A DNA stretch of 40,488 nucleotides, from NCBI RefSeq assembly GCF_014174355.1, contig NZ_JABEQF010000022.1, positions 1-40,488 on the forward strand, written 5' to 3'. The translations under genes and the position numbers were made by a program. Below, piece after piece: positions 38,724-40,454 of the stretch (position 1 is its first letter; the number at the start of each line of letters is the position of its first letter). This DNA is from Gluconacetobacter azotocaptans. GTDB taxonomy: Bacteria; Pseudomonadota; Alphaproteobacteria; Acetobacterales; Acetobacteraceae. The notes beneath the pieces are model-generated. The model was not told where the DNA came from. It searched no databases and saw only the letters and a list, made by a program, of their open reading frames with translations.

Positions 38724-40421
38724 ATGACCCGCGTCGCCCTGTATGCCCGCTATTCCTCCGACAACCAGCGCGAGGCGTCGATCGAGGACCAGTTCCGCAT
38801 CTGCCGGGAACACGTCAAGCGCGAGAAATGGAAGGTGGTCGGCGCCTACAAGGACGCGGGCATCTCCGGCGCCAGTATGATTCTGCGCCCCGGCATCCAG
38901 ACCCTGTTGCAGGACGCCCAGGCCGGACGGTTTGACATCGTGCTGGCCGAAGCGCTGGATCGCATCTCGCGCGACCAAGCCGACGTCGCCACCCTGTTCA
39001 AGCACCTGAAATTCGCCGGCGTGCCGATCGTCACCCTGGCCGAAGGCGAGATCAGCGAACTGCATGTCGGCCTCAAGGGCACAATGAACGCATTGTTCCT
39101 CAAAGACCTCGCGGCCAAGACCCATCGCGGTCTGCGCGGCCGGGTTGAGGACGGTAAATCCGGCGGCGGCCTGTGCTACGGCTATCGCGTCGTCCGCCAG
39201 TTCGATGCCAAAGGCGAACATATCCGGGGCGACCGCGAGATCGACGCGCATCAGGCGGAGATCGTCCGCCGCATCTTCCGTGACTTCGCCGCCGGCATTG
39301 GTCCGCGCGCCATTGCCAAAGCTCTCAACGACCAGGGCATCGCTGGCCCGGAGGGCAAGCTATGGAGTGACACCACCATCCGGGGCCATGTGAAGCGCGG
39401 CACCGGCATCATCAACAACGAGTTGTATATCGGTCGACTGGTCTGGAACCGGCAACGGTACGTCAAAGATCCGTCGACGGGCAAGCGCGTCTCGCGCCTC
39501 AATCCAGAGTCAGAATGGGTAGTGACGGAGGTTCCCAACCTGCGGATCGTCGATGACGCTCTCTGGCAGGCTGCCAAAGCGCGACAGAGCATCATCGCCG
39601 AAAAATACATCAACGTCACCGAGGCCGTGAGGGCGCATCACAAGCGCAACCGGCTGAATGGCACACGTCGGCCGAAATCCCTGCTGTCGGGCCTGCTGTT
39701 CTGCGGGCTGTGCGGTGGTCCCTACACGCTACGGGGTTCCGACCGTTTCGCCTGCTCCAGTCATGTGACGAATGGCTCCTGCACCAACAGTCGGACGATC
39801 CCTCGCCCCGACCTGGAACGTCGCGTGCTCTCCGGTCTGAAGGACCGGATGATGGCGCCGGAGATCGCGGCCGAGGCAATGCGTGCCTATGCCGAGGAGA
39901 CCAATCGTCTCAACCGCGAGCGTCGGTCCAACGCCGATGTCTGGCAGGTGGAACAGGCGAAGGTCGAGAAGCAGATCCGGGGCATCATTGAAGCCATCAA
40001 GGCAGGAATGTTCCATCCCAGCATGAAGGCGGAGATGGACACACTTGAAGCGCGTAAGGCTGAACTGGCATCCCTGCTGGCCGACGTTCCTGACGACGTG
40101 CCGGACCTGCTGCCGAGCGCTTCGGCGATCTACGCCCGCAAGGTCGGCCGTCTGACCGACGCCCTCAATCGTCCCGAGGAACGGCTGGAAGCCGCCGAGG
40201 CGCTGCGGACGCTGATCGAGAAGGTCGTGCTCACACCCGGCCCGAACCGTGGCGAGGCCGACGCGATGCTGTATGGGGAACTGGGCACGATCCTGAGTTG
40301 GATCGAGCGGCAAGCTATTGGAACGGCTGAAAAAAGAAACACTCCCGGAGCTTTGCTCACGGGAGTGTCGGTATCAGTGGTTGCGGGGGCAGGATTTGAA
40401 CCTGCGGCCTTCAGGTTATGA
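38724..40421 (+). CDS. Serine recombinase (integrase) reading into tRNA-fMet
   Basis: This 565-aa large serine recombinase has the resolvase catalytic domain (Y-A-R-Y-S-S-D-N-Q, nucleophile the first Ser; then E-A-L-D-R-I-S-R-D), a recombinase domain (F-R-D-F-A-A-G-I-G-P-R-A-I-A), a zinc ribbon (F-C-G-L-C-G-G, C-S-S-H, C-T-N) and a coiled coil. I chose the ATG at 38724, 8 bp after AAGGA; an ATG at 38718 is possible. Its frame crosses the att repeat, so the last residues (A-G-F-E-P-A-A-F-R-L) and the TGA stop are antisense of the host tRNA. In the excised circle the tail would instead be A-C-K-H-R-Y-R-Q and so on, as at 509-551. It should integrate and excise the element. Confidence 0.92.
   Translation: MTRVALYARYSSDNQREASIEDQFRICREHVKREKWKVVGAYKDAGISGASMILRPGIQTLLQDAQAGRFDIVLAEALDRISRDQADVATLFKHLKFAGVPIVTLAEGEISELHVGLKGTMNALFLKDLAAKTHRGLRGRVEDGKSGGGLCYGYRVVRQFDAKGEHIRGDREIDAHQAEIVRRIFRDFAAGIGPRAIAKALNDQGIAGPEGKLWSDTTIRGHVKRGTGIINNELYIGRLVWNRQRYVKDPSTGKRVSRLNPESEWVVTEVPNLRIVDDALWQAAKARQSIIAEKYINVTEAVRAHHKRNRLNGTRRPKSLLSGLLFCGLCGGPYTLRGSDRFACSSHVTNGSCTNSRTIPRPDLERRVLSGLKDRMMAPEIAAEAMRAYAEETNRLNRERRSNADVWQVEQAKVEKQIRGIIEAIKAGMFHPSMKAEMDTLEARKAELASLLADVPDDVPDLLPSASAIYARKVGRLTDALNRPEERLEAAEALRTLIEKVVLTPGPNRGEADAMLYGELGTILSWIERQAIGTAEKRNTPGALLTGVSVSVVAGAGFEPAAFRL
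40330..40367 (-). terminator. Element-borne terminator for tRNA-fMet
   Basis: On the minus strand CACTCCCG pairs with CGGGAGTG (40340-40347, 40360-40367), extended by GAGC/GCTC, followed by TTTCTTTTTT. It is 10 bp past the tRNA 3' end but inside the recombinase coding sequence on the other strand. It gives the tRNA a terminator that came with the element. Confidence 0.8.
40378..40390. repeat. attR: 13-bp direct repeat at the tRNA 3' end
   Basis: TGGTTGCGGGGGC matches 496-508. It is the complement of the tRNA 3' end including CCA, and so is the junction between element and host gene, leaving the tRNA intact. Confidence 0.8.
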
Positions 40422-40454
40422 GCCTGACGAGCTACCGGGCTGCTCCACCCCGCG
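40378..40454 (-). tRNA. Initiator tRNA-fMet (CAT)
   Basis: This 77-nt cloverleaf reads CGCGGGG at the 5' acceptor strand and CCCCGCA-ACCA at the 3' end, with a C1 x A72 mismatch that marks initiator tRNAs. The anticodon loop is CTCATAA (anticodon CAT, complement at 40418-40420) and the CCA is encoded. It is the integration target. Downstream it runs into the recombinase gene on the other strand and a terminator 10 bp away. The last 34 bp of the window show no further gene. Confidence 0.95.

Follow-up and report, generated by a model that had tools for sequence, protein, structure and literature searches.

In Gluconacetobacter azotocaptans, the attP site of an integrative and conjugative element (ICE) seems to overlap the 3' end of the gene for the element's own serine recombinase. 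When the element is circular, this gene would run through the att core into the left end of the element and thereby obtain a short conserved tail. Integration at the 3' end of tRNA-fMet would cut this tail off, leave an orphan exon behind at attL, and replace the circular tail by GFEPAAFRL, which is read from the antisense strand of the tRNA. The best explanation overall, to which we assign a probability of about 0.5, is that the gene overlapped by attP carries, in its circular form, a degron tail that is lost on integration. The tail would act as a C-terminal degradation signal of the ssrA/ClpX type, so that recombinase made from the circle would be short-lived and the circle might stay free long enough to replicate and to be transferred. 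Integrated copies would then give rise to a more stable protein, the direction of recombination still being set by a directionality factor.

The window, i.e., the whole stretch of 40,488 nucleotides that was analysed, is one entire contig (C22) of its genome. The features at its two ends on which the argument is built are the following.

38718 to 40421, plus strand: ORF of 567 amino acids for a large serine recombinase, recognised as such by its Resolvase catalytic domain, Recombinase domain, and zinc ribbon (Zn_ribbon_recom); the integrated form ends in VVAGAGFEPAAFRL and a stop
40378 to 40454, minus strand: tRNA-fMet (tRNA-Met, anticodon CAT, identified with ARAGORN), the 3' end of which is the integration site
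496 to 508, plus strand: left copy of the 13-bp att core, from sequence
40378 to 40390, plus strand: right copy of the 13-bp att core, within the 3' end of the tRNA, from sequence
507 to 551, plus strand: predicted tail exon of the circular form, ACKHRYRQSLAFSI and a stop (class I, 13 residues after an alanine), from sequence and comparison with relatives
40367 to 40375, plus strand: putative outer part of the P half of attP, GTCGGTATC, from sequence and symmetry
520 to 528, plus strand: putative outer part of the P' half of attP, GATACCGAC, inside the tail exon, from sequence and symmetry

Between the two cores lie genes for TrbI, CagX, VirB8, TrbL, a VirB4-like protein, a coupling protein, and a DUF3363/relaxase protein, together with a RepA-type replication gene. 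With conjugation genes and a relaxase between its att sites, the element is an ICE, and its circle may replicate. Near the left end, at 720-3400 on the minus strand, CBASS-like genes code for a phospholipase effector, an E2-like protein, and an oligonucleotide cyclase, and at 3494-6876, also on the minus strand, a pair formed by a subtilase and an AAA ATPase matches the IetS and IetA defence models.

The repeat TGGTTGCGGGGGC at 496-508 and 40378-40390 is common to tRNA-fMet. An initial annotation had proposed that the recombinase frame crosses this repeat and ends within the antisense of tRNA-fMet, with its stop over the anticodon complement, and the coordinates of ORF and tRNA bear this out. 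The frame passes through the core and the integrated form of the protein ends in GAGFEPAAFRL, its TGA stop at 40419-40421 overlapping the anticodon complement (40418-40420) by two bases. The repeat is indeed read in the same frame at both ends, and the left end, from GCC at 507-509 to TAG at 549-551, gives ACKHRYRQSLAFSI and a stop exactly as had been claimed. When the element's own ends are joined, the frame ends in VVAGACKHRYRQSLAFSI and a stop, the predicted recombinase end being TPGALLTGVSVSVVAGACKHRYRQSLAFSI followed by a stop, and a symmetric attP is restored.

As expected for a large serine recombinase, this attP is built around a short crossover core, and 19 of 24 positions on either side of its centre are complementary in the window element. 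The centre is the same in four further class I elements whose two ends lie on a single contig; these score 19, 18, 16, and 17 of 24, and with real random flanks at least 16/24 was reached in 0.1% and at least 14/24 in 2.2% of 3000 trials. For eight pairs of element ends chosen by hand, five of class I and three of class III, the symmetry of attL and attR is 9-15. The attP symmetry is weak in the three class III elements (11, 14, and 14 of 24); it amounts to 17/24 in the viral contig L082 and to 12/24 in phage RR1-A, the latter value not exceeding the null, with eight outer positions matching in a row. A core followed by tRNA sequence, sought as the target of RR1-A in three genomes, was not found there. 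Two candidates for a free circle were set aside, namely a K. saccharivorans plasmid, in which two cores lie 17.6 kb apart, and the IMG/VR contig G453 (L339), a fragment of an array that ends with a second recombinase and core. A plasmid search with a short tail peptide gave weak matches only, and the one looked at, in Ketogulonicigenium, had no annotated recombinase in the stretch examined.

The reading frame is conserved in relatives. Among 82 related loci (79 from one search and three of the seven from another), 76 could be matched up to residue 500, and 66 of these possess a core near the recombinase end, followed by a tRNA-derived tail in 47 cases and by another tail in 19. The same frame is kept through the core in 65 of the 66, the sole exception being the viral contig L082, in which the recombinase's own frame ends in SFVIAA and a stop. 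From the last conserved motif to the core there are 17 to 51 codons in the 38 of 39 distinct recombinase ends in which the motif was found, and the constant frame despite such a variable linker indicates that length changes were kept in frame. In seven loci (L005, L008, L048, L052, L063, L073, and L076), the sequence just past the recombinase stop agrees with the tRNA antisense up to about ATGAG but not beyond, which looks like the mark of a further element inserted at the position of the anticodon. In L010, 66 bp inserted between two cores (11661-11727) add NRTLRSRRNV...HSQAS in frame, resulting in a doubled-core recombinase, and such an insert also occurs in L114, L141, L150, L154, and L264. 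In L043, L044, and L045, near 9960 on the minus strand, the recombinase ends in VAGPRNQ and an inverted core immediately precedes the start of the match to the recombinase.

Tail sites were drawn from three sources: 20 genomes, in which 89 of 97 core places were read; a search of 397 genomes of the family with a pattern directed at class I, which matched in 19 of them, at 25 places; and 37 more genomes, for which 30 loci and 80 stretches among those listed were read. There are at least 172 distinct sites, chance core matches included, at which no tRNA sequence follows the core. Read in the recombinase frame, the left ends of relatives sort into classes of fixed length. When class I sites are picked by DNA motif alone, with no rule on length, exactly 13 residues separate the alanine from the stop in 49 of the 55 listed, and the remaining six consist of five double-core insertions and one class IV site. 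The 36 distinct class I tails make use of three stop codons (TAA in 20, TGA in 10, and TAG in 6) and finish in I (29), V (6), or L (1). A second class I left end, RKHRCPHSLQTAI followed by a stop, is present in the genome of the window itself (contig C9, position 28653, minus strand; L185), in which no full-length related recombinase to go with it was found besides that of the window.

Several tail classes end like the host tmRNA tag, ANDNSEVLAVAA, which finishes in LAVAA. Class II tails end in -LAA, -LVA, -LTA, -IAA, or -VVA and class IV tails in -QLAA, -QFAA, or -RHAA, both classes being recognised partly by these endings; class III tails end in -ACA, -ALA, or -AHA, and other tails in -SAA, -IAA, -AVA, -FAA, or -FVA. 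There are also tails that end otherwise (-LSRV, -TVR, -GSY, -PLF, -LSR, and -AAG), and two tails resembling class II are two residues shorter, ending in -NRL and -DRL. In phage RR1-A, known from the genome record of an isolated phage, the recombinase ends in LGRFVA and a stop. If non-tRNA tails are clustered at 80% identity, which gives a count free of selection by ending, with all clustered sites used and chance cores included, an AA end is found in 15/115 tails versus 1/102 and 1/95 in the other frames (pooled Fisher p 1e-5) and 40/830 ordinary ORFs (p 0.002). Without the 13-residue class the same comparison gives 15/72 versus 0/64 and 1/61 in the other frames. In the full set, the last residue is A, I, V, or L in 80/115 tails versus 23/102 and 25/95 in other frames and 292/830 in ordinary ORFs. 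The window's own tail ends in -FSI, which is not a canonical tag, in contrast to -LAA, -LVA, and -QLAA in other classes. Class I ends in I, V, or L and resembles only the MuA-type signal.

The circular tail might instead be a working part of the enzyme, required for DNA contact, synapsis, or partner binding during attP x attB recombination, and its loss might help to make integration one-way. Class I tails are of fixed length and retain a run of basic residues (R at position 4 in 36/36, then R/P and H/Q), and the tail adjoins the enzyme's own binding site. However, the basic stretch of class I is in part attP symmetry, other classes have unrelated tails of 18, 28-29, and more residues that share mainly their end, and recombinases in arrays carry the tails of other classes. 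We consider a role of this kind rather unlikely.

The idea that the tail is functionless, and is open only since the attP DNA is conserved and translation must stop somewhere, finds some backing in class I codons 4-8, which lie within the attP symmetry and are conserved as DNA, and in the tails of some elements, which vary widely in length and end. Beyond the symmetry, the pattern is a different one. In codons 9-13 of class I, evaluated after leaving out five of 43 motif sites (two of class II, one with a 15-residue tail, and two chance cores), pS is 0.79 and pN 0.38, a ratio of 0.48, versus 0.83 and 1.04 in the other sense frames. Synonymous sites are thus saturated and third positions vary freely, whereas the second positions of codons 9 and 13 are invariant; past the stop, the position of which is maintained by three different codons, identity is 0.28 and near random. 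Two antisense frames of codons 9-13 (51 tails) are also low, with pN/pS of 0.57 and 0.65 versus 0.54 in the sense frame, so that the fixed stop, together with the second positions of codons 9 and 13, which do not vary, carries as much of the argument. For classes II and III (10 tails each, the -NRL and -DRL tails and the class III variants L059, L261, and L290 being left out), pN/pS is 0.56 and 0.53 in the tail frame versus 0.9-1.54 in the two other sense frames; in this comparison length was the criterion for class I, endings served in part to pick classes II and IV, and the respective stops and endings are no proof there. A functionless tail is therefore already disfavoured and seems quite improbable. 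A chance open frame at the left end was rejected in view of the fixed length, the three stop codons, and the conservation at the protein level. The second tail is a coding exon under protein-level selection, and the case for its reality is strong.

At present the left tail exon of the window is fused to another gene.

111 to 551, plus strand: ORF that encodes the C-terminal part of a different recombinase (39% identity over 135-506) and at present reads into the tail exon

The view that no gene reads the left tail now had to be abandoned, as 507-551 forms the 3' end of this ORF near the contig start, and two elements have consequently used the site. A recombinase carries the tail only if attP is whole or if the recombinase of another element reads in. 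In a single integrated element the exon belongs to no gene, so its conservation as protein points to use in a whole attP or in an array. Selection in tandem arrays, where the tail would serve as the end given to a neighbour's recombinase (e.g., weakening a competitor) and not for the element's own circle, seems very improbable: arrays are common here, the left fragment of the window now bears a class I tail, and several loci have VSVSV-type recombinases with tails of class II or III, but left ends mostly go with the recombinase type (five pairs join class I with VSVS/LSVS and three join class III with ASQxQ; the G012:C12 and G001 spans of 104 and 130 kb, which may hold several elements, break this rule), in the metagenome array G453 the attP from one element's own ends scores 19 and two chimeric joints 13 and 14, and 37 of the 49 class I left ends listed, contig edges included, have no in-frame upstream ORF of 100 codons.

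The shared frame (65/66), the symmetric attP on rejoining (19/24), and the protein-level selection on the tail in relatives are established by comparison of these loci, and they make the two tails more than a matter of chance. Of the earlier proposal that one gene has two tails which differ in function, the first part, two tails according to integration state, is well supported by these three lines of evidence. A different function of the two tails is supported only indirectly, by the selection and by the ssrA-like ends of several classes, and a role of the tail in stability appears to be a better guess than a role in the direction of recombination. Two points had been missed by the initial annotation, namely that the left copy now ends the remnant of another recombinase, and that the overlap contains a terminator-like site for the tRNA.

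40330 to 40368, minus strand: site resembling an intrinsic terminator for tRNA-fMet, inside the recombinase coding sequence (9-bp stem at 40339-40368, T-rich tract at 40330-40338)
436 to 473, minus strand: terminator-like site in the left recombinase fragment, the stem of which is unrelated (stem at 445-473, T-rich tract at 436-444)

On the minus strand, just past the 3' end of the tRNA, the 9-bp stem is followed by TTCTTTTTT. Terminator-like sites occur within 100 nt at 31 of 39 distinct recombinase 3' ends, many with unrelated stems, versus 5/39 and 8/39 in two upstream control windows and 40/390 in plain shuffles. Such sites accompany 24 of 29 tRNA-fMet copies into which a recombinase reads and 27 of 31 copies without one, of which at least four flanks (L033, L057, L205, and L306) look recombinase-derived. 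The element thus appears to supply, within its own coding sequence, the tRNA terminator that it displaces.

For the serine recombinases of tRNA-fMet elements in Alphaproteobacteria at large, we would tentatively propose, at slightly less than even odds, a state-dependent C-terminal degron that is clipped from the recombinase's own gene by integration, its exon being linked to that gene only in a whole attP. Unrelated tail families would have converged on ssrA-like ends, and one short stretch of DNA would be at once the end of the coding sequence, the att site, the 3' end of the tRNA, and, in antisense, the terminator of the tRNA. In mycobacteriophages such as BPs, attP lies inside the repressor gene, and integration into a tRNA gene removes an ssrA-like tag and adds a new stop; the integrase of these phages bears an ssrA-like tag too (Broussard et al., 2013, cited in PMC9262239 and PMC4557955). 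As far as these sources describe it, BPs-type immunity resembles the present case in that attP is inside a gene and integration alters the C-terminus. In BPs the switched gene is the repressor and the integrase is of the tyrosine type, whereas here the switched gene is that of the serine recombinase itself, the element is an ICE, and the antisense of the tRNA provides the new tail. Archaeal suicidal integrases of the SSV1, pTN3, and pT26-2 types also have the att site within the integrase gene, which is changed by integration as it is here; these tyrosine recombinases are split into inactive parts, and according to the review such self-disruption is found only in Archaea (PMC8371274). In contrast to the SSV type, the enzyme described here is of the serine type, and an ORF of 567 amino acids remains after integration, only the last residues being changed. 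ICEs and IMEs of Mesorhizobium share the tRNA-Met target, and 6 of 79 elements have serine recombinases; within the part of that account available to us, neither a state-dependent recombinase tail nor a terminator overlap is described (PMC8627217). By title or abstract, none of the open-licence papers listed describes a serine recombinase that swaps its own tail, which does not imply its absence from print.

If the proposed mechanism is true, the element needs no regulator to record its integration state, which is written into its own recombinase protein. A tag switch with attP inside a gene, known for phage repressors, would then also apply to conjugative elements and to the recombinase as such. 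Cloning from an integrated copy, as in the 47 of 66 loci with a tRNA-derived tail, would yield a recombinase that lacks the tail of the circular form.
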